Origin: a virus
DNA length: 53,997 nt
Virus record (IMG/VR): IMGVR_UViG_3300035670_000274
Location: 1 to 53,997 of that record
Direction: 5' to 3' (one strand)
This document shows, in pieces, positions 7,742 through 23,142 of the stretch. The position numbers and the translations under genes were made by a program. The notes beneath the pieces were generated by a model. The model did not search any database and was not told the origin of the DNA. It saw nothing but the letters and a program-made list of their open reading frames with translations. Numbering within the stretch: position 1 is the first letter of the stretch; every line of letters begins with the position of its first letter.

Positions 7742-7808
7742 CGGAAGGGAGAGAAAAGGGTTTTTGCCGGGGGCGCAAGGGAAAAGAAAAAGAATTTTCG
7801 CAAGGGGT

Positions 7809-7850
7809 TTACAGTTTCACCCCGTAAACCCGCGCAAGGTTTGTTTTCAT
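7809..7850 (-). CDS. 13-codon mini-ORF behind a strong promoter
   Basis: ATGAAAACAAAC opens a 13-residue peptide MKTNLARVYGVKL followed by TAA. It has one of the best promoters of the window: TTGACA (7883-7888), 17 bp, TTTACC (7860-7865), 9 nt, ATG. It could be a leader peptide or the remains of a cassette whose gene body was lost, since the opening is the shared one. Confidence 0.45.
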   Translation of the reverse strand: MKTNLARVYGVKL

Positions 7851-7888
7851 CGGTTGAAAGGTAAAGCGAGGGACAAACCTATTGTCAA
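7851..7888 (-). promoter_or_regulatory. Leaderless-type sigma70-like promoter of the mini-ORF
   Basis: TTGACA at 7883-7888, 17-bp spacer, TTTACC at 7860-7865, 9 nt to the ATG at 7850. Confidence 0.6.
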
Positions 7889-7927
7889 GCGGTTTTCCGG
7901 AAAAACCCACTAAGTAGTTTCCACACC

Positions 7928-7997
7928 TAGGCAAGCTCCCGTTTTTGCGCTATACTGTCCGCACGTTAGAAAACGCCCGGCAAGGCTCCTTTTCTAA
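7928..7997 (+). ncRNA. Plus-strand promoter and stem-loop: candidate noncoding transcript toward the origin-like region
   Basis: TAGGCA (7928-7933), 17 bp, TATACT (7951-7956) and GTCCGC reproduce the array promoter, including the first transcribed bases, but no ATG follows. The transcript would begin near 7963 with a stem TTAGAAAA (7966-7973) / TTTTCTAA (7990-7997) and run rightward into the repeats. It may be a regulatory RNA or replication primer. Confidence 0.4.
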
Positions 7998-8137
7998 TTC
8001 AAACCCCGGGGGTTGGGGAGAACCGGACGGCGTGTAAAAAAAGTGTAAAACAGTATTTTGGGCTTGCATGTCTCCCGGGCTTCGACTAGGGGCGGCAGCA
8101 CTACGTAATACTACTACCTAGACAGGGAATCTTTTTT

Positions 8138-8201
8138 CGCGTAGGATAGGCGGCGAAGGCTATGGGGCTCCGCCCCGCAGTGAGGGTGGACAGGCTACGC
8201 G
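8138..8201. other. Structured RNA or cruciform candidate
   Basis: CGCGTAG at 8138-8144 pairs with CTACGCG at 8195-8201, enclosing a GC-clamped hairpin GGGGC-TCC-GCCCC at 8164-8176. A further GGGCC/GGCCC pair lies just right. The arrangement resembles the closing-stem-plus-hairpin of the 5510-5563 domain. Confidence 0.45.
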
Positions 8202-8396
8202 GATTCCTAGGGCCGCCGCGCAGCAAGGCCCATTTGGAAAATTTTACCACATCCCGGAAACTGTGTCAAGCATTTATTTTTCGGCTCTTTTTTGTGTGTG
8301 TTTGGAAACATTCTAACACGAAAGCCGCGCGGAGTCAATAGCTAAAATGGTGAGGTGCGGAAACTACGTAGAAACCGGATTTGCGCAATTTTCCCG

Positions 8397-9003
8397 TTGA
8401 CTTCCCGCTGCGCGCCGTTATTAGGCCGCCGCCTCGCGCTTCTGTAAGTAGTTGGAACACGTCAATGACTTACAAAAGTGTGGGCGATTTTTTACCTCTA
8501 ATTCGCCCGAAAATTGACTTGAATTTATATCGTTGCGCCGCAATTACTTACAAAAGCGGAAAATGCCGGAAATGAGGTTTTCATCGGGGTCTGACACTCG
8601 CGGCGAATAATTAAATAAATAACGTAAGTCACTCCGACACTTGCTTGGCACGTTTCCTGCGCGTGACGCAAGTAGTTAGTCCCGCAAAGACTTACGCACT
8701 TCCCGAAGGGGCGCGCAATTCCGGCGGCGCGTTTGGAAAAGTGTTGACTTTTCCCCGGGGTTAGATAGAAGCGCGAAAATAATTGTTTTTCGGTCTTGAC
8801 TTCCCGCCGGGAGTCGATAAAAGCGCCGCGCCTACGTGTTTTTACCCCTTGACTACCGGCCGGAATCAGTTAGTGGCGCAAATTTTCCCGGATTTTCCCG
8901 CGTTTTCCCGGATTTTGCCGTTGACTTACGGGCGGGAGCAGGTAGGGGAGCGGGTCCGTGGTAGATTTTGGAAGATTTTGGAAGAAAATGGAAGATTTTG
9001 GAA
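8397..9003. repeat. Iteron-like repeat field, candidate replication origin
   Basis: Six TTGACT units at 8397, 8514, 8744, 8796, 8849 and 8921, four of them followed by a GC dyad such as TCCCGCCGGGA. ACTTAC boxes lie at 8468, 8546, 8690 and 8924, with reverse copies at 8444 and 8624. An AT-only-like stretch is at about 8605-8623. Tandem TTTTCCCGGA-type units cover about 8882-8920 and tandem GATTTTGGAA units about 8963-9003. Iterons, an AT-rich unwinding element and tandem repeats together suggest an origin or partition site. Confidence 0.5.
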
Positions 9004-9391
9004 CGTTCGTTTCAAACGGTCGTTTAGAGGCGAGAACCAAAGGCTAACCCGCCCCAACCCATTTCGACACATTTCCCCCCAAAAAGCTCCTTTTGCCTGT
9101 CCTGTCTACTGTCCTTTCCTCCTATGGCGGGAGTCTTTTCCTCTAAGGTCTTTCCCCTTTGTTTCCTTTCCTCCCTTTTGCGGCCTTTCCCTTGCCGATC
9201 TAAGGTCTAAAGACTCCGGGACAGGTGAACCCCGGGACAAGGCGGCGGGAAGGGGGCGGGAAGGGTTTGCACATCCCCCCGGGGGGACAGTTTGCCGGCC
9301 GTTTCCATGCAGCGGGGGCGGGGGCGGGACGCAAAAAGCCCCGGAAACCGTGTGACAGGCTCCCGGGGCGTAAAACTAGCGGACAGGCGGG

Positions 9392-9775
9392 TTAAACCAA
9401 CCCCGCGCGCCTAGCCGCCGCCAAGGCTTCCGGCTGAGTTTCCAAGTCCCAACCGTTCCGCAAATATTCCCGCGCCCGGGCAAGGTCCGCAAACTCTTCA
9501 ACCTCTGCAACCGTCGCGCGGATTTCCGCCAAGGGGGCCGGCTCCCGGTAATTCTTTTGACGCCGGAACGTTTCACCCCAACCAACCGCCAACCCGCCAA
9601 CCCCGGGCAGGCTTTCCACTGTATAGCCGGCCAATCGAAACGCAGATTCCGCGGACGCAAGGCACGTTTGCGGGGAGTCCGGAAACCATGCGGCAACCCC
9701 TTCCCATTTCCGGGATTTTGTCCGGCGGGCTAGGAGGTAGGGCGCAAGGGCGGCGGGGGAGGTGTTCGGATTCAT
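9392..9775 (-). CDS. Hypothetical protein with shared array N-terminus
   Basis: 127 aa from ATG 9775, chosen over the longer frame (ATG 9796) because the promoter lies exactly there: TTGACA (9807-9812), 17 bp, TTACCT (9784-9789), 8 nt, ATG. Opens MNPNTSPAALAPYLLARRTK. The body has WEGVAAWFPDSP and a helical EVEEFADLARAREYLRNGWD tail. Family unknown. First gene right of the origin-like region. Confidence 0.75.
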   Translation of the reverse strand: MNPNTSPAALAPYLLARRTKSRKWEGVAAWFPDSPQTCLASAESAFRLAGYTVESLPGVGGLAVGWGETFRRQKNYREPAPLAEIRATVAEVEEFADLARAREYLRNGWDLETQPEALAAARRAGLV

Positions 9776-9812
9776 CGGCGGCAAGGTAAGGGCCAATTTT
9801 CCCCCGTGTCAA
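9776..9812 (-). promoter_or_regulatory. Leaderless-type promoter
   Basis: TTGACA 9807-9812, 17-bp spacer, TTACCT 9784-9789, 8 nt to the ATG at 9775. No dyad precedes it; the -35 is consensus. Confidence 0.7.
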
Positions 9813-10285
9813 ACGCTTTTTGCGTAAAACTGCAACGCCCAAAGCGGGCGCGGCTTCGTGTCGTCCGTTTTCGTGATCCGGGCTAGGGAAACGGGCGGGC
9901 ATCCCGGGAACGCAACCAGCGCGGCGGTTTTCCCATTTTCGGGAATTTCACACGTTACCCCATGAAGGGCGCCCCATTGCGTTACCTGCTCCCGGGTCAA
10001 AAGGTGCGGAGACCCGGCCGGGCGCATCCCCGGCACTTCGTCCGGGGTTTCGGGAGGATAGGGGAGCCAACCGGCAACCGGCGAGCGTTCATCGGTCCGG
10101 CCGGTCAAGTCAACCCGTTTGCCCGAAGGCGTCGCGCAATAATGGCAACCCGTTTCCGGGTCAACTGCAACCCGGGCGAGCTGGCGGGAACCGTCGGCGC
10201 GGACTAGGACTAGGAGAAGCCCGGCCGCGTTCGGAATGTCCGCGCGGGCGCGAAGGGCGGGAGCGGGGGAAGTGTTTTTATTCAT
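9809..10285 (-). CDS. Hypothetical protein with shared array N-terminus
   Basis: 158 aa from ATG 10285; promoter TTGTGC, 17 bp, CAACCT, 8 nt fixes this start rather than the frame's ATG at 10294. Opens MNKNTSPAPALRARADIPNA. The middle contains ETGCHYCATPSGKRVDL, a possible metal or disulphide CxxC pair, and LVAFPGCPPVSLARITK near the end. Two TACGTA boxes 10 bp apart lie before the -35. Family unknown. Confidence 0.72.
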   Translation of the reverse strand: MNKNTSPAPALRARADIPNAAGLLLVLVRADGSRQLARVAVDPETGCHYCATPSGKRVDLTGRTDERSPVAGWLPYPPETPDEVPGMRPAGSPHLLTREQVTQWGALHGVTCEIPENGKTAALVAFPGCPPVSLARITKTDDTKPRPLWALQFYAKSV

Positions 10286-10333
10286 CGGGGCCAAGGTTGC
10301 GCCCTTTCCATCCCGGGCACAAGTTTTTTCTCC

Positions 10334-10349
10334 TACGTAGTTCTACGTA
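10334..10349. promoter_or_regulatory. TACGTA pair, 10-bp spacing, before a promoter
   Basis: TACGTA at 10334-10339 and 10344-10349, directly after the stop of the 56-aa gene and a few bases before the -35 of the 158-aa gene. Same spacing recurs at 11237/11247 and 14322/14332, so probably a protein-binding operator. Confidence 0.5.
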
Positions 10350-10520
10350 TTACCCAAGGGCCAACCCGGAGCCGATAATGGCGAACCCAAGCGCCAACCC
10401 AAGCAGGGCCGCGCAGACATAGGCCGCACCCCGGGACCGGCGCCAGACAGGGGGCCGGCGGGGCGGGACCGTCACCGGGACATAACAGAGGACGCGGGCA
10501 GGGCGTGGAAAGTGTGTCAT
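10350..10520 (-). CDS. Small membrane protein
   Basis: 56 aa from ATG 10520, 4 nt after the stop of the gene before it. A basic Pro/Arg-rich N-terminus (VPPRRPPVWRRSRG) precedes one C-terminal transmembrane helix (AAYVCAALLGLALGFAIIGS). A longer frame reaches 10553 but overlaps the neighbour. Function unknown. Confidence 0.6.
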   Translation of the reverse strand: MTHFPRPARVLCYVPVTVPPRRPPVWRRSRGAAYVCAALLGLALGFAIIGSGLALG

Positions 10521-10524
10521 GGCG

Positions 10525-10740
10525 CTAGGAAAGTTCAGCACGACGGCGGGCAATGGCTTCGTTGAACGTTTCCCCCGGGCGCGCCCAAATTAGGCCGGTT
10601 CCGCGTTGCTCACGGCAACCCCATGAACGTGCGTAAGCCGTATCGCGCCCGAAACTCTCGAAAAAGTGGTAATGCCAGCAAATTGCGCCGCGTTTGGTTT
10701 CGCGGATGACGGCTTGGCGGTGATAATATATCGAAGACAT
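10525..10740 (-). CDS. Hypothetical protein
   Basis: 71 aa, MSSIYYHRQAVIRETKRGAI. Start at 10740 is set by TAAACT ending 7 nt upstream; a longer frame to 11067 overlaps the next gene and looks Arg/Pro-rich. Aromatic-rich (ICWHYHFFESFGRD) with CREQRGTGLIWARPGETF. Family not recognised. Confidence 0.65.
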   Translation of the reverse strand: MSSIYYHRQAVIRETKRGAICWHYHFFESFGRDTAYARSWGCREQRGTGLIWARPGETFNEAIARRRAELS

Positions 10741-10771
10741 TTTTACAAGTTTAGAGGTTGCGGGGTGCGAC

Positions 10772-11104
10772 TCAGGCCGTAAGGAGCAGGCATTGCACCG
10801 GGTCGCCGCCGTTGGCGCGGTCACAATCGGCGAGAAACGCGGACAGACCGGCGCGGAAATCGGCAGGCACTTCCTCAATGCTCGACACGAAGGGCGCCAC
10901 CGGGGCCGGGACGAAATCGGCGGGGAGCAGGTCCGCCGGGTCAAGCGGAGCCGGGGCCGGGGACTGTTTGGCAACCCAAACGCGCGGCATGACGGGAGCG
11001 GACGGGGCGGGGAAAATCCCGGCGGCGGCAAGGGCGGCACAAGACGCGGCGCGGCGGGAGAGAACACGGGAGCGAATCAGGGCGAGACGGGTGGCGGATT
11101 TCAT
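10772..11104 (-). CDS. Hypothetical Ala/Pro-rich protein
   Basis: 110 aa, MKSATRLALIRSRVLSRRAA, with a possible N-terminal hydrophobic segment (SCAALAAAGIFPAPSAP) that could be a signal sequence, then Pro/Ala linker and a short acidic helix. Its best promoter (TTGACT, 17 bp, CAACCT at about 11190-11217) would leave a leader of about 70 nt, unlike most neighbours. Confidence 0.55.
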   Translation of the reverse strand: MKSATRLALIRSRVLSRRAASCAALAAAGIFPAPSAPVMPRVWVAKQSPAPAPLDPADLLPADFVPAPVAPFVSSIEEVPADFRAGLSAFLADCDRANGGDPVQCLLLTA

Positions 11105-11236
11105 CGTATAACGGGAACAGACTAGCGGTTTTCGGTTTTTGGCGTCCGGGGTGACGTTGTGCCTTCCCAGACTTGAACGGGGCAGAGGTTGTGGGCGGGT
11201 TGGCGGGAAGTCAAGCGGTTTTCCTGACTATTTTCC

Positions 11237-11252
11237 TACGTAGTTTTACGTA
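11237..11252. promoter_or_regulatory. TACGTA pair, 10-bp spacing
   Basis: TACGTA at 11237-11242 and 11247-11252, overlapping the stop codon of the 94-aa gene and upstream of TTGACT that may drive the 110-aa gene. Confidence 0.45.
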
Positions 11253-11530
11253 GTCGGCGAACTCTTTTTGATCCACTTCCGCACCGTCATATCCCAAAGG
11301 AAGCCGGCCGCAAGGCGCTCCGCTTCCCGGACACTTTGGCAGTGCGGGTTGCCGTTCCCGCCGCGTTTCGCTAGGTATTCCGCCCCGCGTTTCGTGCGGA
11401 ACGGGCCAACCGCACAAGTGAATTGCGGGCATGTTTCGGCGGTAGGTTCGCCAGTGTGACGGAATACGGTGCGGGCGTTGCCTTTTACGCCTACCCAAAG
11501 GCGGCGCGTTTGTTTCGTTTCTTTTTTCAT
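11246..11530 (-). CDS. Hypothetical basic protein
   Basis: 94 aa, MKKETKQTRRLWVGVKGNAR. Lys/Arg-rich with TCAVGPFRTKRGAEYLAKRGG and a helical SVREAERLAAGFLWDM; a small nucleic-acid-binding role is conceivable but not shown. Promoter GTGACA (11562-11567), 17 bp, GATACT (11539-11544), 8 nt to ATG; the AGGG...CCCT dyad at 11580-11593 lies 12 bp before the -35. Confidence 0.75.
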   Translation of the reverse strand: MKKETKQTRRLWVGVKGNARTVFRHTGEPTAETCPQFTCAVGPFRTKRGAEYLAKRGGNGNPHCQSVREAERLAAGFLWDMTVRKWIKKSSPTT

Positions 11531-11593
11531 CGGAGCACAGTATCGGAAAAATTCCCGCGCTTGTCACGCTTTTTCTCCTAGGGTCTATTCCCT
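11531..11593 (-). promoter_or_regulatory. Promoter with dyad 12 bp upstream of the -35 box
   Basis: Dyad AGGGTCTATTCCCT 11580-11593, GTGACA 11562-11567, 17-bp spacer, GATACT 11539-11544, 8 nt to ATG 11530. Representative of the distant-dyad class (also 12884, 13313, 14614, 15060, 17256). Confidence 0.7.
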
Positions 11594-11669
11594 AGTCATC
11601 CCGCAAATCGTTTTCAGTAGCCAAAAGGATGCCCAAAACAAGGCAAATCAGGAGAACGGCGGCAGCCAT
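11592..11669 (-). CDS. 25-aa membrane microprotein
   Basis: MAAAVLLICLVLGILLATEN plus a short acidic tail: one transmembrane helix. It begins 21 nt after the stop of the 224-aa gene and its TAG forms the edge of the dyad at 11580-11593, so it fills the gap exactly. Confidence 0.5.
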   Translation of the reverse strand: MAAAVLLICLVLGILLATENDLRDD

Positions 11670-11690
11670 AAATTGCGAGGGTTTAAGGGT

Positions 11691-12365
11691 TTACGCGTTA
11701 GCATAGGCGGGGGACTTTAGGAAAGCAATCAGCGCGAGAGCTTGCGCCCGGGTTGCATCAACCTCGATCCGCACGCTGTCCCCGCCGCGAACGTCAAGCG
11801 ACGCAAGGGCATAGCGCCCGCCCTCTTCCCCGTGCTTCGGATTCAACAGGCAAAAGGATTTGCGCGTGCCGCCCCGATGGTGATCCTTTTCAATCTCGCG
11901 CCCGCAGGCGGCGGCAATCTCCCCGGCGGTCTTTTCGTGAGCGTTCGCCGCGTTTGTGTCGCGCTCAATTTGCGCGTTCGCCATAGCAAACACCGTTTCC
12001 GCTTCCGGGAGCAGGCGCCGGGCAATGTCCGCGGCAATAATGGCGGGCGCTTTTGTTTCCGCTGCGGTGATTTCCGGGTCTTTCACACCGCCATAGTTCG
12101 GGCTCTCAGAGTAGAGCCGCACATAGTTCCCGGCGTTGCGCGGGCGATTGAACTGAACCCGGACCCGGCCCTTGGCTGCCCATCCCCCGGAAGAACCGGC
12201 GAGGAACAGTTGCAGACCGTCGGAACGGGTCAAATACTGGTTGCCGTTGCGTTCGGTGGCGTCGGGGTGAACCGGGCGGGCGTTCCAAGTGCCGGGCAGA
12301 GCGGCGGCGATTTCAGCGGCGAGAGCCGCAAGGGAAACGGGGGCGGGTGTGTTTGTGTTATTCAT
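11691..12365 (-). CDS. Hypothetical protein with shared array N-terminus
   Basis: 224 aa, MNNTNTPAPVSLAALAAEIA. A central region reads TRSDGLQLFLAGSSGGWAAKGRVRVQF, beta-rich, followed by a long Ala-rich helix (ADIARRLLPEAETVFAMANA) and a C-terminal SVRIEVDATRAQALALIAFL. Some phage hypotheticals have this layout, but no name is certain. Promoter TTGACA (12397-12402), 17 bp, CATACT (12374-12379), 8 nt, ATG. Confidence 0.78.
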   Translation of the reverse strand: MNNTNTPAPVSLAALAAEIAAALPGTWNARPVHPDATERNGNQYLTRSDGLQLFLAGSSGGWAAKGRVRVQFNRPRNAGNYVRLYSESPNYGGVKDPEITAAETKAPAIIAADIARRLLPEAETVFAMANAQIERDTNAANAHEKTAGEIAAACGREIEKDHHRGGTRKSFCLLNPKHGEEGGRYALASLDVRGGDSVRIEVDATRAQALALIAFLKSPAYANA

Positions 12366-12402
12366 CGGCGGACAGTATGCGCGCGGGTTGCGGGTATGTC
12401 AA
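12366..12402 (-). promoter_or_regulatory. Leaderless-type promoter
   Basis: TTGACA 12397-12402, 17-bp spacer, CATACT 12374-12379, 8 nt (GTCCGCCG) to ATG 12365. Clear example with consensus -35. Confidence 0.75.
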
Positions 12403-12444
12403 CAGGAGAAATGGGTTTTGCGTCAATATGAGGAAAACACCCTA

Positions 12445-12834
12445 TCAAAAACGCAATTCCTTCATTAAAGCAATTTCCTTTACGGTAAAAAACGCCTTAG
12501 CGGCGCGGTTTAAGGGAACCGTTTTACCGGCCTCTTCAATCAGTTTTTCGTCAACCGTTTCCCCCTCGTCCTCCATTTTTGCGACATATTGCGGCACAGA
12601 TTGTGCCCCGGTGCAATGGCAACACATTTGCCCCATAAAATCGGCGGCGGATCGGCAGGACCGCATAAACCCGGAGAACTCCGCGCCGTTTTGGCGGCGA
12701 AACACTCCGCGCCATGTGGCGGACTTGCCCGGTTCAATTGTCAAAACTAGGGAAAGCCCGGTCTCGGCGAGAAAATATGCAACGTCCGACTCAGGGTGCG
12801 GGGTGACAGTGTCTAATATGTTGGAATTTTTCAT
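12445..12834 (-). CDS. Hypothetical Cys/His-containing protein
   Basis: 129 aa, MKNSNILDTVTPHPESDVAY. Contains MGQMCCHCTGAQ, a CCHC cluster that may bind metal, and a C-terminal acidic helix. Family not recognised. CATACT ends 8 nt before the ATG; the -35 is poor (TTCCCT) and the dyad at 12884-12897 sits 12 bp before it. Confidence 0.72.
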   Translation of the reverse strand: MKNSNILDTVTPHPESDVAYFLAETGLSLVLTIEPGKSATWRGVFRRQNGAEFSGFMRSCRSAADFMGQMCCHCTGAQSVPQYVAKMEDEGETVDEKLIEEAGKTVPLNRAAKAFFTVKEIALMKELRF

Positions 12835-12900
12835 CGGCGGACAGTATGGGCAAAAGCCGGGGGAAAGGGAAGAAAAATGTGCTAGGGTGTATTCCCTAGG

Positions 12901-13263
12901 TCAAACCGTTTTGCGTAGCCCTACGCCGAAGAATTGCACGAATTTGCGCAACTCCTCACCATAAAGGGAGCTGGCGGGCGATACCTGAAACCCCGGGCCG
13001 GTTTTCCGCGCGCAACAGATGCAACCGAATTTTCCGTTGTCCGCGTCGTTTTCCAATTCCATGCCGCGCAACAGTTTATGCGCAACCGATGCGGGGAACG
13101 TCTCACGGGCGGCAACGGGCAAACCGTTTTTGCCAATCCATCCGGCGTCAACTACCCACTCGGCGGGCGCTCCGGGTTCATCGGCAATCATGCCGGAAAA
13201 ACAGATGCGGACAGGCACGCGGGAAGTCGCGAAACGGGCGGCGGTTTTGTGTTTTGATTTCAT
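12901..13263 (-). CDS. Hypothetical protein with CxCC motif
   Basis: 120 aa, MKSKHKTAARFATSRVPVRI. A segment FGCICCARKTGPGFQV has three close cysteines. Otherwise alpha/beta-like with WVVDAGWIGKNGLPV. Promoter TTGTTT, 17 bp, CATAAT, 8 nt, ATG, with the dyad at 13313-13326 about 12 bp upstream. Function unknown. Confidence 0.72.
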   Translation of the reverse strand: MKSKHKTAARFATSRVPVRICFSGMIADEPGAPAEWVVDAGWIGKNGLPVAARETFPASVAHKLLRGMELENDADNGKFGCICCARKTGPGFQVSPASSLYGEELRKFVQFFGVGLRKTV

Positions 13264-13324
13264 CGGGCGGCATTATGCGAGCGCGCGAACGGAAAAACAA
13301 GGTTTATTTTCTAGGGTCTTTCCC

Positions 13325-13615
13325 CTATCCGGTAACGGGCAGAGCGTGAAACGTCATGCCTACCCGCTCACAATCCCGGCGGAAACGGCGCTGCCAGTAA
13401 ACGGAAAGGGGTTTTGCCGCATCCAACGCCCGCATGGCGTCAATCTGCGCGTCATAGCGCAAAACGCCTTCCGGTTTCGTCGTATACCCCCAATCCTTCC
13501 CCATTTCGCCGGGCAATTGCGACACATAAAGCGGCGCGCGGTGCGGCTGTTTGGGGTGCGTGCAATAGCAGATTGCGGAGCCGGGAGCGGGGGAGGTGAC
13601 AGGTTTTGATTTCAT
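13325..13615 (-). CDS. Hypothetical protein with shared array N-terminus
   Basis: 96 aa, MKSKPVTSPAPGSAICYCTH. CYCTHPKQPH is a possible metal site. The C-terminal half is helical and basic (YWQRRFRRDCERVGM). TAAACT ends 8 nt before the ATG, but no good -35 is found 17 bp away. Confidence 0.7.
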   Translation of the reverse strand: MKSKPVTSPAPGSAICYCTHPKQPHRAPLYVSQLPGEMGKDWGYTTKPEGVLRYDAQIDAMRALDAAKPLSVYWQRRFRRDCERVGMTFHALPVTG

Positions 13616-13810
13616 CGGCGGACAGTTTACGCGCTTTCAGGACCTTTTCCTAGTCGGGAAAACTACCCATTTTCCGTCTAGGGTGTTCCCCCTAGTTGCC
13701 CGGCCGCGCGGGGTTGAAGTCCGGCGGCCGGGCCTAGGATGAAAACCCCGGGGGATTTATGGAAAAGGGCTCCCCGGGTTGGCCCAAGTGTAAAAAGGGA
13801 CGCGGGCCGG
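13616..13810. other. 195-bp intergenic region with strong inverted repeat
   Basis: Holds the TAAACT box of the gene to the left, the dyad at 13680-13693, a 10-bp GC stem (13698-13733) and CCCCGGGGG/CCCGGGG complementary runs near 13750-13780. No gene seen. Confidence 0.45.
13698..13733. terminator. GC-rich stem-loop
   Basis: GCCCGGCCGC (13698-13707) pairs with GCGGCCGGGC (13724-13733), 10 bp, 16-nt loop. Located downstream of the 157-aa gene on the minus strand; no T-run follows, so termination is only one reading. Confidence 0.4.
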
Positions 13811-14284
13811 TTAGCTGATTTCCGACAGTTCCGCGCGCTCCGTCTCTGTGAAGAACGCCCGCAGGCGCTTTCCGAAGGCGGCGCACCGCTTGAAAGTCGC
13901 CAACGCTTTGCGGCTGTCCTCTTCGTAACCGAACTCCCCGCAGAAGTCGGCGAACGTGTCCGGGCAATTCACATCCCCGGAGATGCACGCTAGCGCATCG
14001 TAAGACGTGGGGGTTTCACCCTTTTCCTTCGCGCTGATACTGTCCCAAAAGGAGAACGAAAGGGCGCGGACGTTTACCGGATTCACGCCGCCCGGGCGGA
14101 CCTTGCGGGAGAGCTTGACCCGGTATTTGATCCCGTGCGCACCGTCTTTTGCCCAAGCCGGGGGCGTTTGCGCTTTCGCGGGCTTCGCGGCGAACGTGAT
14201 TCCGTTCCGGGCGAGGAAGTCAAGCGCCGTTTGCTCATAGGAGGAAACCGGCGCGGGGGAGGTGTTTTGCGTGTTTGTTTTCAT
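13811..14284 (-). CDS. Conserved phage hypothetical protein
   Basis: 157 aa, opening MKTNTQNTSPAPVSSYEQTA. The C-terminal half, TSYDALACISGDVNCPDTFA then FCGEFGYEEDSRKALATFK, matches a hypothetical family I recall as frequent in phages and plasmids (PTxYDxLAC...FxDFCxEFGYxxDSRKA). Function unknown. Promoter TTGCTT, 17 bp, CTATCT, 8 nt, ATG, preceded by two TACGTA boxes. Confidence 0.8.
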   Translation of the reverse strand: MKTNTQNTSPAPVSSYEQTALDFLARNGITFAAKPAKAQTPPAWAKDGAHGIKYRVKLSRKVRPGGVNPVNVRALSFSFWDSISAKEKGETPTSYDALACISGDVNCPDTFADFCGEFGYEEDSRKALATFKRCAAFGKRLRAFFTETERAELSEIS

Positions 14285-14321
14285 CGGCTAAAAGATAGCA
14301 GAGGACCGGGAAGGAAAGCAA

Positions 14322-14337
14322 TACGTAGTTATACGTA
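14322..14337. promoter_or_regulatory. TACGTA pair, 10-bp spacing, abutting a -35 box
   Basis: TACGTA at 14322-14327 and 14332-14337, between the stop of the 74-aa gene and the TTGCTT -35 of the 157-aa gene. Confidence 0.5.
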
Positions 14338-14338
14338 G

Positions 14339-14563
14339 TCAGAGGACCGGCGCGCTAACCGTCACACGCTTGTAACGCGTCCCGTTCGGCATCCGGGAGA
14401 GCGGCGGCAATCCGTCATGCGCGCGGGCGCTGTTGTAGTCGGCAAGGGCGTTTTGCCGGTAGGTTTCACCGTAGGAGGCGGAACAGTTGCCGGAATAGCT
14501 ACCAACGTGCCGAGTAGGCGGGACGGTGAAGCGGTAGGAGGCGCGGGGGGTGTTGTTTTTCAT
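14339..14563 (-). CDS. Hypothetical small basic protein
   Basis: 74 aa, MKNNTPRASYRFTVPPTRHV, with many Tyr, Ser and Asn and basic C-terminus (NGTRYKRVTVSAPVL). Promoter GTGACA (14595-14600), 17 bp, CATACT (14572-14577), 8 nt, ATG; dyad at 14614-14627 in the distant position. No family recognised. Confidence 0.72.
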   Translation of the reverse strand: MKNNTPRASYRFTVPPTRHVGSYSGNCSASYGETYRQNALADYNSARAHDGLPPLSRMPNGTRYKRVTVSAPVL

Positions 14564-14625
14564 CGTCGGACAGTATGCCGGAGGGTTTTCCGTTTGTCAC
14601 GCTTTTTCCGTCTAGGGTCTATTCC

Positions 14626-15009
14626 CTAGACCCGGACCCGCAATGCCCTTTCCGCGCGGGCATAGTCGTATACCGTTGGCACGCCTTCCCGGCCGTCAAG
14701 CCGGGCGGATGTGAGTCTAGCGGGGATTTCCCGGACGATGGCGGACAGTTCGGCGACCTGTTCCAAAAGGGCGGCGTTTTGGCGGCGAAGTTCCTCAATG
14801 TGCGCGAGGTGAACGGATTCCGGGTCATAACAGCCGCCCTTTTCCCGGCTCCGCGCGTCCTCTGCCGCGAGTCCGGCGAGGTGTTCGGCGATTTCCGTTG
14901 GCATTTGCAGGGAGTGCAACCCCGACGGGCCTTTCCCGTCCTGCCACTGGAACAGGGAGTGCCCGGGCATTGAGGTTGGGGCGACGGCGAAAATGGGCGG
15001 GTTCTTCAT
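14626..15009 (-). CDS. Hypothetical coiled-coil protein
   Basis: 127 aa, MKNPPIFAVAPTSMPGHSLF. Helical region AHIEELRRQNAALLEQVAELSAIV is a short coiled coil. The segment PTEIAEHLAGLAAEDARSRE resembles LETEVAEYIAGLAAENARLR of the gene at 24398-24622, suggesting a shared module. Promoter GTGACA (15042-15047), 17 bp, CATCCT (15019-15024), 9 nt, ATG. Confidence 0.72.
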   Translation of the reverse strand: MKNPPIFAVAPTSMPGHSLFQWQDGKGPSGLHSLQMPTEIAEHLAGLAAEDARSREKGGCYDPESVHLAHIEELRRQNAALLEQVAELSAIVREIPARLTSARLDGREGVPTVYDYARAERALRVRV

Positions 15010-15064
15010 AATGTGTAAAGGATGCCAAAACGCGGCTTGCTTGTCACGTCTTTTCGCCTAGGGT

Positions 15065-15238
15065 CTATTCCCTACCTTTCCGGTTAAAGTGTTCCCGTGC
15101 ATCCCGGCGGGCGGTCCGCAGGTTGGCGGCATCGGTTGTAAACTGTCCTAGCCCACGGGAATAGCAGGTGAACACGGCCATGCCGTAGGCGTTGCGCCCG
15201 TGATAGGTGATTTCAGAGTGTTTGACTTTGGTTTTCAT
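15065..15238 (-). CDS. 57-aa hypothetical protein
   Basis: MKTKVKHSEITYHGRNAYGM at the start and ARRDAREHFNRKGRE at the end; a compact basic protein. Promoter TTGAAA, 17 bp, AAACGT, 8 nt, ATGAAAACC. Its TAG stop is inside the dyad at 15060-15073. It fills the gap between two array genes and has the standard opening, so it is very likely real. Confidence 0.7.
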   Translation of the reverse strand: MKTKVKHSEITYHGRNAYGMAVFTCYSRGLGQFTTDAANLRTARRDAREHFNRKGRE

Positions 15239-15251
15239 CGGTCAAAACGTT

Positions 15252-15605
15252 TCAGGATTGCGCTCGGTTTTTCAACCAAAAACCCGCTTGCAGGGCAATT
15301 TCGCCGGCATCCATTTTGCGCAATTGCCGCAGGAAAAGGACGGCGGAACGTATTTGCCGGTAGCGCCAAGCGGCCCGCGCCGCGTGTTCCGTGTCGAATC
15401 GGCTCCCGTAATAGGTCCCGCTTTTCGTGTCATAGTAAACGAATCCGCGCTCCTCAATGCGCGACGGCCAAGGGATTGAACCATAAGGGGAAAACTCGAA
15501 TCCGTCAGACAGGCGGACGGCAACCCGTGCCGGGGAGATTTCCGGGCAAGGGCGCACAGTGGCGAGCGCAATCATCTTTTCAAGTGTGGGCGTTTTCGTT
15601 TTCAT
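15252..15605 (-). CDS. Hypothetical protein
   Basis: 117 aa, MKTKTPTLEKMIALATVRPC. Beta-rich centre GFVYYDTKSGTYYGSRFDTE followed by an Arg-rich helix AARAAWRYRQIRSAVLFLRQ. Function unknown. It has the single best promoter in the array (TTGACA, 17 bp, CATAAT, 8 nt). Confidence 0.78.
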   Translation of the reverse strand: MKTKTPTLEKMIALATVRPCPEISPARVAVRLSDGFEFSPYGSIPWPSRIEERGFVYYDTKSGTYYGSRFDTEHAARAAWRYRQIRSAVLFLRQLRKMDAGEIALQAGFWLKNRAQS

Positions 15606-15657
15606 CGTCGCACATTATGCACCCTTCCCCGGGTTCTGTCAACTAGGGGATTCCCCT
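15606..15657 (-). promoter_or_regulatory. Leaderless-type promoter with abutting dyad
   Basis: Dyad AGGGGATTCCCCT at 15644-15657, TTGACA 15637-15642, 17-bp spacer, CATAAT 15614-15619, 8 nt to ATG 15605. It is the only dyad-abutting promoter with a fully consensus -35. Confidence 0.8.
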
Positions 15658-15666
15658 CATTTTCCC

Positions 15667-16920
15667 TTATTTTGCGGCAAATCCGGCAAGCACGGATTCA
15701 ACCGCTGCCAGCCCGGCAACCTTATTCCCGCGAAAGGGTTGAGAGGCGGAAATCGCGGCGTGCGCTTGGGCGCGGGTCAACCCCCGGGCGCGGAAATCCT
15801 TTCCAGTTGCGCAATAGAGAGCGAACGTCTGGCGAGGGCTTGCCGGCTCCTCCCCGTTCTCCGGGGCCGGGACGGTGACGGGCGCGGAAACAGCGCGGAC
15901 AGGGGCGGCGGCAGCCTTCACGGGCTCCCCGAAAACGCGCCCCGCCTTCGCTTGCTCCTCGAATTTCGCGACGCGTGCGGGCTCCAGACGCTTGAATTGC
16001 CCGCCGTCAACGTTGTAACAGAGGGAGCCGCCGCGTTTCTTCACGGTGATTTTGCGGGGCTTAAACGTGCCCGGAGCCGTCTCCGTTTCCATGCTGCAAA
16101 GGTAAAGCGTGAATTCCCCTCCATCCCGTAACGGAGCCGTTTCCAACCGTTGCGCGGCCGGGAGGGTCGCCAGAAAAGCGGCGAAACGCACCTTGCGCGC
16201 CTCTTCCTCTGCGGCGTTTTTGATCCGGCGCTCCTCGCATTCCGCGCGCCAAGCGTCGTCTTTCCGGTCCTGTTCCTCTTTCGCGGCCCGCTCCAAGGTC
16301 GCCAGCGTTTCGGGGCTTCCCACGTCGGGGAACACGGTTGCGATGAACGCCCAAAGGTCCGCCGCAGGGATCGCGCCAATATGCATGGATACCCCGTAGC
16401 CTAGCCCATACGCGAGGGCAAACGCCCCGGCGGACCCATAGAACAGGGACACGGGAAGGGCGCGGAGCGTGTCAATGGTTTTCTGTTTTTGCGCCGCGCG
16501 GTCCTCCTCCTTGTAAACGGTGAAGTAGCGGACAAGCTCGAAGCCGGAAGAGTTTTTGTGCGCAACCCATCCCGCCGCCGACACTTTGGCAATACGGGAA
16601 AGCAGAGCCTTTTTCTCCGCGTCAATGGCCGAAAACTTGACTCCCACGGAGCCGTTGCCGTTCTGGAAAACGGCTTTGTAACCTCCGGGGCGCGCGGCGG
16701 GATTGAAAGCGGGGAGCTTCCCGTGTATCGTTACCTGCGTGCTATACAGAAGGGCCGGGACGTTGAGGGTTTCGAGCCGTTCAAGCGTCACCCCGTTTTC
16801 CAGTTCTTCGGCCGTGATTTCGGCAACCGTGTTCGGCGCCACGTTGGAAACGCGCCGCGCTTTGTCGTCCCGGCGGCAATCCATCGTTTCCAGTTTTTCC
16901 GTCAAGGTGTATGTGTTCAT
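15667..16920 (-). CDS. Large hypothetical protein with helical middle
   Basis: 417 aa from ATG 16920, fixed by TAGACA, 17 bp, CACACT, 8 nt; the longer frame to 16980 runs through the promoter. Opens MNTYTLTEKLETMDCRRDDK. Residues about 215-260 form a charged helix (KEEQDRKDDAWRAECEERR). A Pro/Ala linker precedes a C-terminal domain RQTFALYCATGKDFRARGLT reminiscent of phage-borne hypothetical tails. Largest protein of the array; function unknown. Confidence 0.78.
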   Translation of the reverse strand: MNTYTLTEKLETMDCRRDDKARRVSNVAPNTVAEITAEELENGVTLERLETLNVPALLYSTQVTIHGKLPAFNPAARPGGYKAVFQNGNGSVGVKFSAIDAEKKALLSRIAKVSAAGWVAHKNSSGFELVRYFTVYKEEDRAAQKQKTIDTLRALPVSLFYGSAGAFALAYGLGYGVSMHIGAIPAADLWAFIATVFPDVGSPETLATLERAAKEEQDRKDDAWRAECEERRIKNAAEEEARKVRFAAFLATLPAAQRLETAPLRDGGEFTLYLCSMETETAPGTFKPRKITVKKRGGSLCYNVDGGQFKRLEPARVAKFEEQAKAGRVFGEPVKAAAAPVRAVSAPVTVPAPENGEEPASPRQTFALYCATGKDFRARGLTRAQAHAAISASQPFRGNKVAGLAAVESVLAGFAAK

Positions 16921-16970
16921 CGGGGAACAGTGTGCCAGAACGCGCGGGCTTTGTCTATGGGGTGTTCCCC

Positions 16971-17207
16971 TTATTCGCAAACCGCCACAATGGAAACCCG
17001 GACGCCGGCCGCTTCACATCGGGCTTGTGCCCATACGGCATCCGCTCCGCTGGCATACCGTTTCGCGTCCTTCCGGTCGGCAACGCCGCGCACGGCTTCA
17101 ACCGTTGACGCATCGGAAACGATCCATGCCCGGATCGGAAACCCCGGTTTCGCGGGCAGGGTGCGGAGATAGAAGGAAACAGGGGAAGAACAGGTATTTG
17201 ATTTCAT
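16971..17207 (-). CDS. Hypothetical protein
   Basis: 78 aa from MKSNTCSSPVSFYLRTLPAK. ATG 17207 fits TATGAT ending 7 nt upstream. Centre AWIVSDASTVEAVRGVADRKD suggests a small alpha/beta domain. No family recognised. Confidence 0.7.
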   Translation of the reverse strand: MKSNTCSSPVSFYLRTLPAKPGFPIRAWIVSDASTVEAVRGVADRKDAKRYASGADAVWAQARCEAAGVRVSIVAVCE

Positions 17208-17274
17208 CCCCGGCATCATAGCACATCGGGCCGGGAAGGGAAGAAAAATGTGAATAGGGTGTTTACCCTAGTCC

Positions 17275-17454
17275 CTATCCTACCCGCACCCAAACCCCGC
17301 CAAAGGACTCCCGCTCATAGCGAAAAGACTCCCCGGCATAATGGGCAACCGCCCAAAGGGAGCAAACCGTTTCGCCGCGCATCATGGAAATCCCGGGGGC
17401 GAAGTAGTCCGGGGGAAGGATGGAGCCGATGGGCGCGACGTGTGCCGGTTTCAC
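17275..17454 (-). CDS. Small hypothetical protein, GTG start
   Basis: 59 aa from GTG 17454, 4 nt after the stop of the gene before it, so probably translated by coupling. A TTG at 17487 would add 11 residues overlapping that gene. Reads VKPAHVAPIGSILPPDYFAP and ends SFRYERESFGGVWVRVG. Family unknown. Confidence 0.55.
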   Translation of the reverse strand: MKPAHVAPIGSILPPDYFAPGISMMRGETVCSLWAVAHYAGESFRYERESFGGVWVRVG

Positions 17455-17458
17455 GGGG

Positions 17459-17932
17459 TCAAAAGGCGTGATTTTCGCAGGCTTCAATCTCCGCTTCCAA
17501 CCGCGCGATTTTGGCCGTCAACTCGGCGACGGTTTCAGGGGCGGACGCACCCTCCTCCTCCGCTTCAAGATTCTCCTCTTTTTCAAGCGCGGTTTCCGCG
17601 TCCGTCAATTCGCCGCGCAGGGAGTCAAGAAACTCCTCCCGCGCGTTTTCAACGTCCCTTTCATCGTAATAGTCCCCGCCAATCTCGTAAACATTTTCGT
17701 GGTCCGAAGAGTCCGCGACTCCGCAGCGAAATGCTATGGGGTCCATCTCTTCTAGGACACGGGAGGGTGACATACCGGAGAACGGGCCGCCGATAGAGTC
17801 GAAAGAATAGAGTTCGTCAAGCGTATCGCGGAAACGCTGTTCTATGTCAACCGCCGAACATTCGGCTACAACGTGAGCGGTCAGACGGTCAATGACGGAT
17901 TTCAGGGCTTCGGGGGACAGGTTGGTTTTCAT
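17459..17932 (-). CDS. Hypothetical acidic protein, paralogue of 24816-25238
   Basis: 157 aa, MKTNLSPEALKSVIDRLTAH. Shares the core MSPSRVLEEMDPIAFRCGVA and the later YYDERDVENAREEFLDSL with the protein at 24816-25238 (MSPSRVLAECDPTAFRCGMN), so the two are paralogues. The C-terminus is a Glu-rich coiled coil (ETVAELTAKIARLEAEIEA). Phage hypothetical family; function unknown. TACAGT ends 8 nt before ATG. Confidence 0.78.
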   Translation of the reverse strand: MKTNLSPEALKSVIDRLTAHVVAECSAVDIEQRFRDTLDELYSFDSIGGPFSGMSPSRVLEEMDPIAFRCGVADSSDHENVYEIGGDYYDERDVENAREEFLDSLRGELTDAETALEKEENLEAEEEGASAPETVAELTAKIARLEAEIEACENHAF

Positions 17933-17996
17933 CGGCGGAAACTGTAACATTTTTTAGGACGCAATGGAATAGGGTGTTTTCCTTATTTTGCGGTTT

Positions 17997-18371
17997 TTAT
18001 CCCTTTTTCAGTTCCCGCGCAAGTTCTTCCAAACGATGCCGGTTGGATTCGTCGCCGGGCAAGGAGCGGGCAAGTCGCGCGTCAATCCATTCCGCAAGGG
18101 ATTCGTCCGGGGCCGATTGAATCAGCGTAAACTTCTCCCGGGCAATGTCCGCGCAATTCGCCAGTTCCTCGGCGTCAAACGCGGCGGAGCCCCCGCTATT
18201 GACAAACGTGCATTGCCAGCGGACGAACTTGGCGACCTGTTCCAAGGTGACAAAAACAGGTTTGAACCCGGGCAAACCGCAGCCAAACAACGCGGAATCG
18301 TCAACGTGCGCGAGGTCTTTCGAGTAGTCAAACGCCAGAGCGGCGGCGGAAGCGAATTCTGATTTTTTCAT
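17997..18371 (-). CDS. Hypothetical protein
   Basis: 124 aa from MKKSEFASAAALAFDYSKDL. Middle SALFGCGLPGFKPVFVTLEQ and VRWQCTFVNSGGSAAFDAEEL; helical C-terminus. Promoter TTGAAA, 16 bp, TACACT, 9 nt, with the dyad directly before the -35. Family not recognised. Confidence 0.72.
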   Translation of the reverse strand: MKKSEFASAAALAFDYSKDLAHVDDSALFGCGLPGFKPVFVTLEQVAKFVRWQCTFVNSGGSAAFDAEELANCADIAREKFTLIQSAPDESLAEWIDARLARSLPGDESNRHRLEELARELKKG

Positions 18372-18434
18372 CGGGAACACAGTGTAACAGGTTCCGGGCG
18401 GTTTTCAATAGGGTTTATTCCCTATACTACCCCG

Positions 18435-19022
18435 TCACCCAAACCGCCGGCCGTCCTCGGTAAAGGTGTATTCGTTGGCCTCAATGGATTCGTCAACCTG
18501 TTCGTCGGCGTTTTCCCATTCATAGGCGCTTTCCAGTTGACGGTAAATCCATCGCATCGCGTCTTTGGCGGCTTCCTCTAGGGCGCGTTCCGCCTCGTCC
18601 GCGTCATCCCCGTTTTGATCCGGGAAGGAGAACGAAAAATCCGTGCAATTCTCGTGCTGATAATACCCGGAATGCCGCACGGTGAAGGTCGCCAGCGGGA
18701 ACAGCGCCGCCAGACGCTCAAACTCGGCGGCAATCCGGTGAAGCTCGGCGTCTTTCGGGGCGTATTCCCGCATAGCGCCCGGCGTCACGTCAGCGGCGCG
18801 CCAAGTGCCCTCGAAACACGCGCCGTCACCTTGGGAAGAGAACCCCGAGTAAAGCACGCGGTCAATGGTGATTCCGCAGGTGGCGAACGCCTGTTTGGCG
18901 TCCTCAATGGTGGAGTAGGCGTCAAAGGAGGAATCGCCATTGCGAAACCATTCCCGCGCCTTTTCCTTGGCGGCGGCAGACAGTTCGGAGAAGGAGTAGA
19001 CTTGTGTTTGGATTGTTTTCAT
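18435..19022 (-). CDS. Conserved phage/plasmid hypothetical (antitoxin-of-TA-like annotation)
   Basis: 195 aa. The pattern VYSFSELSAAAKEKAREWFR, then CGITIDRVLYSGFSSQGDGACFEGTW, is one I recognise from a widespread family of phage hypotheticals sometimes labelled antitoxin of toxin-antitoxin stability system; that label is not experimentally firm. Acidic C-terminal helix. Promoter TTGAAA (19054-19059), 17 bp, TATTCT (19031-19036), 8 nt. Confidence 0.82.
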   Translation of the reverse strand: MKTIQTQVYSFSELSAAAKEKAREWFRNGDSSFDAYSTIEDAKQAFATCGITIDRVLYSGFSSQGDGACFEGTWRAADVTPGAMREYAPKDAELHRIAAEFERLAALFPLATFTVRHSGYYQHENCTDFSFSFPDQNGDDADEAERALEEAAKDAMRWIYRQLESAYEWENADEQVDESIEANEYTFTEDGRRFG

Positions 19023-19073
19023 CGGGGAAAAGAATAGCAGAGAAGGGTCAGTATTTCAATAGGGTGTTTCCCT
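19023..19073 (-). promoter_or_regulatory. Leaderless-type promoter with abutting dyad
   Basis: Dyad AGGGTGTTTCCCT 19061-19073 (overlapping the previous gene's stop), TTGAAA 19054-19059, 17-bp spacer, TATTCT 19031-19036, 8 nt to ATG 19022. Confidence 0.75.
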
Positions 19074-19543
19074 CATTCCGCAGTTTTCTGCGCGCTCCGA
19101 TGGATTTTACCCACATTCCGGTCCCCCCAACGGGTAACGTCAGGGTTAAACGGCTCGTCATAGGTCTCTTGCGCTTCATCATACGTCAACCCAGAGGAAA
19201 GCACATCGGGAATCAAATTCCAGCGCAGTTCCCCGCCTTTGGTCGGCAAAATGGAAACGCCGCCGACTGCAATGCCCTTGCGTTTAGTGGCGTCCGATCC
19301 CCGGTCAATGGCCGGGACTTGGGCCGTGACGTGACGTGCCCCTTTCAGGAGCGGGAGAAAAGCGTCGCCGTCATGGAAAACGATGCGGCCCTTGAACCCA
19401 AGGAAAGACCGTTCCGCGACGATCCGCTCGTAAATTTCCACGTATTCGACACGCCCCGCTTCCCGGTCGATTTTGTCGTAGCAGGCAACGGCATGGCCGT
19501 CGGAATAAAGGTAAAGGCAAGTGCAGGTTTTACGGGAGTTCAT
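19073..19543 (-). CDS. Hypothetical protein
   Basis: 156 aa from MNSRKTCTCLYLYSDGHAVA. ATG 19543 follows TGGACA, 16 bp, TACTCT, 7 nt; the longer frame to 19636 crosses the promoter. Beta-rich N-terminus with CTC and CYDKIDREAGRVEYVEIYER; C-terminal YDEAQETYDEPFNPDVTRW. Function unknown. Confidence 0.75.
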   Translation of the reverse strand: MNSRKTCTCLYLYSDGHAVACYDKIDREAGRVEYVEIYERIVAERSFLGFKGRIVFHDGDAFLPLLKGARHVTAQVPAIDRGSDATKRKGIAVGGVSILPTKGGELRWNLIPDVLSSGLTYDEAQETYDEPFNPDVTRWGDRNVGKIHRSAQKTAE

Positions 19544-19592
19544 GGGGAAGAGAGTAACAGATTCTCTGTATTTGTCCAGTAGGGTGTTTCCC

Positions 19593-19925
19593 TCAATTCG
19601 TGGTAATCTCAAATTCCCCGGCCATCCCCCGGTCAAATAGCCCCTGCAAAGCAGAGCACAATCGGCTAACGGTTAAACGGCTTTCAATTGCGGCCAAAAC
19701 CGTGTAAGTGTCACCGTCTTTTTCCATGCTGCCCCAAGACAGGGACAAGCCGCGAAAGGCGGAACTTGAATCCCCTATCCCGTGCGTCGTGCAATCCTCA
19801 AATTCCGTGCGAAGCTGGGTGATAAACCGATGGCGGTTGGTAGGGCAAACGAGACGCGGGAGAGACGGCACGGCTTCCGCGTCTTCAGCAAGGGAACGGG
19901 TGAATTTGACGGTGTGAGTATTCAT
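19593..19925 (-). CDS. Hypothetical protein
   Basis: 110 aa, MNTHTVKFTRSLAEDAEAVP. Two apparent halves: RLVCPTNRHRFITQLRTEFE and a beta-rich SLSWGSMEKDGDTYTVLAAI. Promoter TAGACC, 17 bp, TATCCT, 7 nt, preceded by the dyad at 19963-19976. Family unknown. Confidence 0.75.
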   Translation of the reverse strand: MNTHTVKFTRSLAEDAEAVPSLPRLVCPTNRHRFITQLRTEFEDCTTHGIGDSSSAFRGLSLSWGSMEKDGDTYTVLAAIESRLTVSRLCSALQGLFDRGMAGEFEITTN

Positions 19926-19982
19926 CGGGAACAGGATAGCAGGTTGGAGTGCTTGGGTCTATAGGGAGTTCACCCCATTTCT

Positions 19983-20168
19983 TCACATAATAATATGCCC
20001 CGGATTCGCGGCCTTATACGCGGCAAGGTATTTCGTGCGGGCTTTATCCAAGTCGGATTTGACCCTCTTGTAATCAGCGGAAAAAACGCTGGTGTTCATC
20101 CATTTTGCGTGGTGGGCCTCATATTCGCGGACGGCGATTTCCAAGTTCTTTTTAACATTTGTATTCAT
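19983..20168 (-). CDS. Small helical protein
   Basis: 61 aa, MNTNVKKNLEIAVREYEAHH, almost entirely helical and basic (KRVKSDLDKARTKYLAAYKA). Promoter TTGAAA (20200-20205), 17 bp, TATACT (20177-20182), 8 nt, ATG, an exemplary array promoter. Confidence 0.75.
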   Translation of the reverse strand: MNTNVKKNLEIAVREYEAHHAKWMNTSVFSADYKRVKSDLDKARTKYLAAYKAANPGHIIM

Positions 20169-20220
20169 CGGCGGACAGTATACCTGAAATCGGATGGGAT
20201 TTCAATAGGGAGTTCACCCT
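20169..20220 (-). promoter_or_regulatory. Leaderless-type promoter with abutting dyad
   Basis: Dyad AGGGAGTTCACCCT 20207-20220, TTGAAA 20200-20205, 17-bp spacer, TATACT 20177-20182, GTCCGCCG, ATG 20168. Confidence 0.8.
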
Positions 20221-20306
20221 ATTTTTCCTCAAATCACGCGATACGCCGCGAAGGGATAACTTTTTCTCGGCGCTCGGAGCGGGTTTGGTGTTCGAGTGAG
20301 CGCGGC

Positions 20307-20327
20307 TCACTTCATTGGTGTTTTCAT
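20307..20327 (-). CDS. 6-codon mini-ORF with full array promoter; possible small RNA
   Basis: ATGAAAACACCAATGAAG then TGA. Upstream TAGACT, 17 bp, CATACT, 9 nt and the dyad at 20367-20379 are complete. Downstream to about 20220 lie GTGAGC-CGC-GCTCAC and a second GC dyad but no gene, so the transcript may act as RNA or be the remnant of a lost cassette. Confidence 0.4.
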   Translation of the reverse strand: MKTPMK

Positions 20328-20378
20328 TGCGCTTGCAGTATGCCAGAGGTTGAGTCCAAAGTCTATAGGGTGAATCCC

Positions 20379-20681
20379 TTATTCCGTCTCTTCGCGCTCA
20401 GGACAAACCAGTTCCCCGGAGTCAATGAACTCCGCAACAAACCGTCGCATGGAAGCGCCGGAGAGGTGAAGGAACGCTGGATTTGGCCCCGTTTTCCACG
20501 GGAAGGGAGTCATCGGCTTACCTCTGAGGTTTTCGCAGTCGTCAAAACTCGGCGCGTCTTTTGCATAGGTATAAAGGGCAATCACCTTATTGTCAGAGTT
20601 TCGGTGATGCACCATAACCTCGCTCTCCCCGTCGGTATAGGTGTATTCGGTGAAGGCGCGGGCTTTGGTTGGTGTTTTCAT
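20379..20681 (-). CDS. Hypothetical protein
   Basis: 100 aa from MKTPTKARAFTEYTYTDGES (a second ATG sits directly before it at 20684). Beta-rich EVMVHHRNSDNKVIALYTYA, then a helix ASMRRFVAEFIDSGEL. TATCCT ends 6-9 nt before the starts, TTGCGC 18 bp earlier, dyad abutting. Family unknown. Confidence 0.72.
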   Translation of the reverse strand: MKTPTKARAFTEYTYTDGESEVMVHHRNSDNKVIALYTYAKDAPSFDDCENLRGKPMTPFPWKTGPNPAFLHLSGASMRRFVAEFIDSGELVCPEREETE

Positions 20682-20743
20682 CATGCCGAGAGGATAGCAC
20701 AGAAAGGGGGTGCGGCGCAATAGGGTGTATTCCTCATTACCCC

Positions 20744-21121: not shown

Positions 21122-21186
21122 AGCGGCGACAGTATGGCAGACCAAAGGGCGCTGCGCAATAGGGTCTTCACCCCATTTTCCCGCTC

Positions 21187-21672: not shown

Positions 21673-21678
21673 AACGAA

Positions 21679-21960: not shown

Positions 21961-21965
21961 AGGGT

Positions 21966-22355: not shown

Positions 22356-22361
22356 AGGTGG

Positions 22362-22550: not shown

Positions 22551-22641
22551 GTTGGGCGCTACTCTAGCAGATCAAAGGGTGGGGTGGCAATAGGGTGTTT
22601 GCCCTATACTGGCGCGTCATACCCAGCCTCCCAAAACCCAA

Positions 22642-22697: not shown

Positions 22698-22780
22698 AGG
22701 CGATGAAAACGTGACGCGTCCGGCGTCACTGCGGGCCACGGTTTGCGGGAAACTGCGGCGGAAATGGGTGAGCTAGGGCG

Positions 22781-23095: not shown

Positions 23096-23142
23096 TGCGG
23101 GAGGGAAGGTAGCAGGTCGTTTCTATGGTGTCAAGAGCGTTT

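Follow-up and report, generated by a model that had tools for sequence, protein, structure and literature searches.

A non-coding gap with a private family of 31-bp direct repeats as a candidate replication origin in a tailed phage genome of about 190 kb

The stretch of DNA analysed here (the window; 53,997 bases) is an IMG/VR virus record that proved 100% identical to part of a larger record, IMGVR_UViG_3300036770_006434 (G001; 190,671 bases). Window position w corresponds to G001 position w+163136 up to 27,535, and to w-27579 from 27,580 on. G001 begins and ends inside a 12/84-bp tandem array (window 27364-27733), a junction that the window spans. Since the window bridges both ends, the genome forms a closed map of about 190.7 kb. 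As the window is part of this larger genome, repeats seen in it could be tested genome-wide. The array in which the larger assembly breaks lies within a coding gene, an open reading frame at 26698-27984 with a DUF6745 match, where a 12-bp repeat forms a higher-order 84-bp array of 4.4 copies. G001 is a tailed phage genome. It encodes TerL, a DnaE-like polymerase, a DnaB-like helicase, a primase and a RecA/UvsX-like recombinase, together with ribonucleotide reductase, a thymidylate synthase with an HNH insert, and at least 8 tRNAs. One tRNA, at window 24642-24741 on the minus strand, was found by Rfam match and missed by ARAGORN; a second tRNA-like 3' half (GTGGGTTCAAATCCCAC) lies just upstream of the minus-strand gene 34247-34531. 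Coordinates below are those of the window unless G001 is named.

The locus under study lies in a long non-coding gap, in which the following boundaries and transcription signals were predicted.

7742-9391, no strand: non-coding gap holding the whole field (gene calls, codon scores, tRNA and Rfam scans)
8241-8269, minus strand: leftward sigma-70-like promoter, TTGACA-N17-TAAAAT (consensus match)
8310-8338, minus strand: leftward sigma-70-like promoter, TTGACT-N17-TAGAAT (consensus match)
9338-9369, minus strand: predicted intrinsic terminator, ending the leftward transcript of gene 9392-9775

The preliminary description had called this the largest gene-free gap, which is true within the window. 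Genome-wide there are two longer gaps, at G001 46.4-52.9 kb, but these contain 8 tRNAs, and 7742-9391 is the largest gap in the 190.7-kb genome that is free of both genes and tRNAs. Every open reading frame in it scores negative by codon score, and a hidden gene, including a 190-aa frame with a TTG start at 8783-9355, was rejected on these non-coding scores. The gap holds no tRNA and no Rfam RNA match. Folding was no better than that of shuffled sequences for 8380-9010 as DNA (z -0.6), for 7960-8240 as minus-strand RNA (z -0.1) or for 8950-9390 as plus-strand RNA (z +1.3); on these three folds and the missing Rfam match, we rejected a folded RNA or a single-strand origin. If the predicted promoters and terminator work as they look, 8340-9335 is a transcription-insulated island on the minus strand.

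Six TTGACT hexamers, at 8397, 8514, 8744, 8796, 8849 and 8921, had been reported in this gap, and all were found on the plus strand at those positions. This density, 6 on the plus strand within 700 bp, compares with 2 or fewer elsewhere in a whole-genome scan, and shuffles of the gap gave a mean of 0.26 and a maximum of 3. We observed that 5 of the 6 hexamers (8397, 8744, 8796, 8849 and 8921) head a longer direct repeat of 31 bp, TTGACT-N16-TAnnnG, as follows; all were located by pattern and matrix.

8397-8427, plus strand: repeat unit 1, TTGACT-N16-TATTAG
8744-8774, plus strand: repeat unit 2, TTGACT-N16-TAGAAG, with a CCCCGGGG dyad
8796-8826, plus strand: repeat unit 3, TTGACT-N16-TAAAAG, with a TCCCGCCGGGA dyad
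8849-8879, plus strand: repeat unit 4, TTGACT-N16-TAGTGG, with a CCGGCCGG dyad
8921-8951, plus strand: repeat unit 5, TTGACT-N16-TAGGGG

The consensus consists of TTGACT, 16 spacer bases with a fixed G at spacer positions 8 and 15, TA, 3 variable bases and G, mostly followed by GCGC. The TTGACT at 8514-8519 on the plus strand, tried as a sixth unit, was rejected as lying outside this family. When both strands of the 190,671 bp were searched, TTGACT-N16-TAnnnG had exactly five matches, all in the gap and in one orientation (G001 positions 171533, 171880, 171932, 171985 and 172057), as against a mean of 0.003 occurrences in dinucleotide shuffles of the gap. In leave-one-out tests, a weight matrix built from four units scored the fifth at 18.7-32.6 bits, and nothing outside the gap above 15.5 bits. 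A scatter of the same repeats through the genome had been named as an outcome that would speak against an origin; the unit is instead confined to the gap. We consider it nearly certain that these repeats form a private array for protein binding, and likewise that the array is a dedicated cis-acting one.

GC dyads had been described as following four of the TTGACT hexamers. TCCCGCCGGGA, CCCCGGGG and CCGGCCGG are true palindromes; TACGGGCGGGA is not palindromic, and the unit at 8397 has no dyad. The centres of the three real dyads lie 12, 13.5 and 11.5 nt into the unit, so that the dyad cannot count as a constant element of it. As both its presence and its position vary, we rejected the GC dyad as the defining element, and the dyads are partly due to chance.

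Start-to-start distances among units 2 to 5 are 52, 53 and 72 bp, the last (unit 4 to unit 5) being 52 bp lengthened by a tandem duplication of 20 bp of spacer, which roughly preserves helical phase. The five unit starts fall on about one face of the helix (R=0.947 at 10.5 bp; p about 0.002, or 0.013 once the period is allowed to vary over 10.3-10.6 bp). These observations bear on the possibility that the field is a product of unselected drift, in which local slippage duplications built up in a large gap without genes and serve no dedicated function. Slippage does typically produce arrays such as the 10- and 20-bp ones listed below. The units, however, differ from each other at most spacer positions and yet retain TTGACT, TA, the final G and their helical phase, which suggests selection rather than recent copying, and we regard drift as quite improbable.

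Several further elements lie among or beside the units.

8491-8553, no strand: 63-bp segment with the highest predicted curvature in the genome (AA-wedge-type model)
8606-8622, no strand: 17-bp pure A/T run, the longest in the genome and a possible unwinding point (genome scan)
8882-8920, plus strand: 10/20-bp array ATTTTCCCGG, with T-tracts at 10-bp phase (tandem repeat detection)
8959-9003, plus strand: 10-bp array GATTTTGGAA, with A/T-tracts at 10-bp phase (tandem repeat detection)
9044-9195, plus strand: pyrimidine-rich tract whose strand bias is the second strongest in the genome in 100- and 150-bp windows (strand-bias scan)

The A/T tract, previously placed at about 8605-8623, and the two tandem decamer arrays were thus found as described. 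It should be noted that a pure A/T run of this length arises in 7% of gap shuffles, and that over 50 bp the least stable parts of the genome lie outside the gap, which displays no outstanding instability over 30-80 bp either. A second predicted curvature peak, at 8877, near the 8882-8920 array, is among the top 105-bp segments of the genome in the same AA-wedge-type model. Taken together, phased direct repeats, predicted curved DNA, an A/T run and a non-coding island with predicted insulation give the field an origin-like anatomy.

TTGACT also serves as a -35 hexamer of this phage, whose intergenic promoter shape is TTGAC[A/T]-N16/17-TAnnnT, so that the units could derive from promoters or act as regulatory sites. 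As a regulatory array, they would be promoter-like or operator sites for RNA polymerase or a phage regulator, with TTGACT as -35, a T-tract as an UP-like element and TA as part of a non-standard -10, and the gap would be a control region for early transcription. T-tracts do lie upstream of the TTGACT in 4 of the 5 units, and the gap contains the two strong predicted leftward promoters. The last position of the -10 is a highly conserved T in sigma-70 promoters, but it is G in all five units (TAnnnG and not TAnnnT), and the units conserve further positions, some within the spacer and others beyond the -10-like element. The plus strand, moreover, has no gene downstream, and its RNA from 8950 to 9390 is the one that folded no better than shuffles.

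The gap also contains short boxes.

8363-8371, no strand: operator-like ACTACGTAG box, upstream of the promoter at 8338 (matrix and motif comparison)
8444-8473, no strand: inverted pair GTAAGT / ACTTAC, with 18 bp between the boxes (motif scan)
8546-8551, plus strand: ACTTAC box (ACTTACAAAAG), second copy of the box at 8468 (motif scan)
8624-8629, minus strand: ACTTAC box abutting the A/T run (motif scan)
8690-8695, plus strand: ACTTAC box, forming an inverted pair with AAGTAGTT at 8670 (motif scan)
8924-8929, plus strand: ACTTAC box within repeat unit 5 (motif scan)

ACTTAC boxes had been said to occur in both orientations, and we observed 4 on the plus strand and 2 on the minus strand; these 6 in 700 bp, versus 2 or fewer per 700 bp elsewhere, are the densest cluster of the genome. 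Boxes of the ACTACGTAG type also lie just upstream of the -35 elements of early promoters (window 10341/10351, 11244/11254 and 14329/14339), where they are often tandem pairs 10 bp, or one helical turn, apart. A matrix made from these early-promoter boxes gave 8 hits of more than 8 bits in the gap, against an expectation of 1.1, which favours a regulatory role, and the ACTTAC boxes that it found score 6.6-8.8 bits. That the ACTTAC boxes belong to the ACTACGTAG early-operator family is suggested by these scores, not proven. On balance, we view a regulatory array as possible and on the doubtful side.

We present the ACTACGTAG boxes as a second early operator family of the phage, beside a shared dyad, AATAGGG-N5/6-CCCTATT, that overlaps the -35 of many early promoters at window 16900-24400, approximately, with a few as far as 36 kb. 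CCCTA[TC]T occurs 20-60 nt upstream of 15 minus-strand genes, and the dyad looks like the operator of a phage-wide early regulon. Many early minus-strand genes at window 9300-23000 look leaderless, having a -10 followed by 6-9 bases to the ATG and no Shine-Dalgarno sequence. Such starts have a TTGACA-like -35 and a TAnnnT -10, and the bases before the ATG are often ccgccg; between 9.3 and 23 kb, 20 TAnnnT hexamers were found no more than 25 nt from a start codon, and 18 of these stop 6-9 nt short of that codon.

Known packaging sites, such as the lambda cosB R sites and P1 pac, can likewise combine repeat arrays and bent DNA. The field might in this way be a pac- or cos-type array for a small terminase, or a centromere-like partition site. 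Measured from the TerL gene, the gap is 15 kb away, on the structural-module side. It does not adjoin TerL, however (G001 155.3-157.2 kb, as against 170.9-172.5 kb for the gap), whereas pac or cos sites would be expected beside the terminase genes or where the genome ends. The assembly breaks of both contigs lie elsewhere, so that nothing points to a fixed end at the gap, and the proteins tested included none that resembles ParA/ParB. We consider a packaging or partition role unlikely.

The preliminary description had named the lack of a skew change at the gap as an outcome that would refute its reading of the field as a candidate replication origin with iteron-like repeats. Neither the cumulative GC skew nor the third-codon GC skew switches there; this is weak evidence, since the skew of this phage simply follows the gene strand. 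A DnaA-type origin, of the bacterial oriC kind, was rejected, as the gap has no exact or near-exact TTATCCACA cluster. No initiator was recognised among the proteins scanned, a subset of those encoded. The replication module, about 90 kb from the gap, encodes an AAA+ ATPase (G001 60390-61574).

We also looked for the field in other genomes. The nearest TerL is 59% identical and lies on a 4.9-kb contig, the next being near 40%, and by this measure no close relative was found. A DNA search for homologues in 50,697 phage records gave no match, and protein searches with the neighbouring genes returned only the same genome or one distant PhoH. Scans for three-unit patterns returned 15 stretches in IMG/VR and 32 in GTDB genomes, among which only the phage's own array has units that score alike. 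The unit is absent from the relatives G004-G007 (TerL 40%, GC 35-37%), whose base composition differs from that of G001, including G006, the most related large contig (TerL 40%). Upstream of PhoH, at distances of about 5 kb and 20 kb, G006 contains large gaps that are rich in A/T and carry repeats of other kinds; these are not evidently homologous to the gap described here. The G006 gaps (L037:350-1500 and L037:15570-17500, in the early region) carry repeated AGAGAGCTTGGCTCTCT-type hairpins and GTATTTGAAATTCTGATAC dyads, and also 43-nt units of the form AAATAA...AGTTTTTT.

To our knowledge, experimentally mapped origins exist for few large lytic phages, and sequence seldom suffices to predict them. 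Transcription-primed origins of the T4/T7 type have strong promoters beside an A/T element, as is predicted here, but lack an array of long repeats like that of G001. By anatomy, the closest described case is oriR of the Bacillus phage SPP1, a lytic phage with a DnaB-family helicase. There, direct repeats and an A/T-rich unwinding element lie in a long intergenic region that is bracketed by transcriptional signals and located away from the replication genes (PMC6316719). The G001 field resembles oriR/oriL of SPP1, which are bound by gp38, in these respects: direct repeats, a candidate A/T element, an intergenic site with predicted transcription signals, distant replication genes, and a DnaB-like helicase in what is most likely a lytic phage. 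G001 is, however, four times larger and has its own polymerase, no gp38- or gp39-like protein was recognised in it, and the likeness concerns anatomy.

Origins of lambda and the Stx phages combine iterons, an A/T tract and intrinsic curvature, and the field is like them in its number of repeats (four to six O iterons in those origins), its adjoining A/T tract and its predicted curvature (PMC7466680). The lambda iterons lie inside the initiator gene and are inverted repeats that bind O dimers (PMC5043065, PMC7466680), whereas G001 has 31-bp direct units spaced 52-72 bp apart in non-coding DNA, and no O-like protein was found. Plasmid iterons are usually in phase with the helix, and the iteron origins of P1 (oriR), RK2 and F share with the field their helix-phased direct repeats and an A/T-rich opening region, for which the field offers a possible counterpart (PMC5043065). 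Unlike these plasmids, G001 has no Rep protein that we found and no DnaA-box cluster, exact TTATCCACA being absent from the gap.

In the aggregate, the anatomy fits the origin that had been proposed, while an initiator, a conserved homologue and a skew switch were not found. The weakness of the unwinding region, the distance of about 90 kb to the replication genes, the absence of the unit from G006 and the use of TTGACT as a -35 hexamer also count against an origin. We tentatively take the field at about 8390-9010 to be an iteron-type replication origin, the best single function that we can assign to it, though with something less than an even chance of being right. We place this reading above a regulatory array, which is less probable, above a packaging or partition site, which is less probable again, and above unselected repeats, which come last. 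As part of the origin reading, the phage is most likely a lytic tailed phage of about 190 kb.

We infer that binding, unwinding and helicase loading would take place at the gap. A phage-coded DNA-binding protein may bind the units cooperatively and wrap the curved DNA, with the AAA+ ATPase as one candidate helper. The strain of wrapping could then open the A/T run, at which a DnaB-like helicase, a primase and a DnaE-like polymerase, all encoded by the phage, would be loaded. Transcriptional activation from the two leftward promoters (8338 and 8269) could assist. In a more speculative version, to which we give little credence, the units would be promoter-derived iterons, with a perfect -35 hexamer, mostly an upstream T-tract and a changed -10. 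Such an array might nucleate replication and also recruit (or sequester) RNA polymerase, either unchanged or as modified by the phage, and the ACTACGTAG/ACTTAC boxes might couple early transcription to origin firing.

In the genome-wide search, a single locus of 600 bp stood out by its private family of repeats. If the origin reading is true, this locus would mark both the origin and the binding motif of its initiator in an uncultured phage lineage that has its own DnaE-like polymerase.
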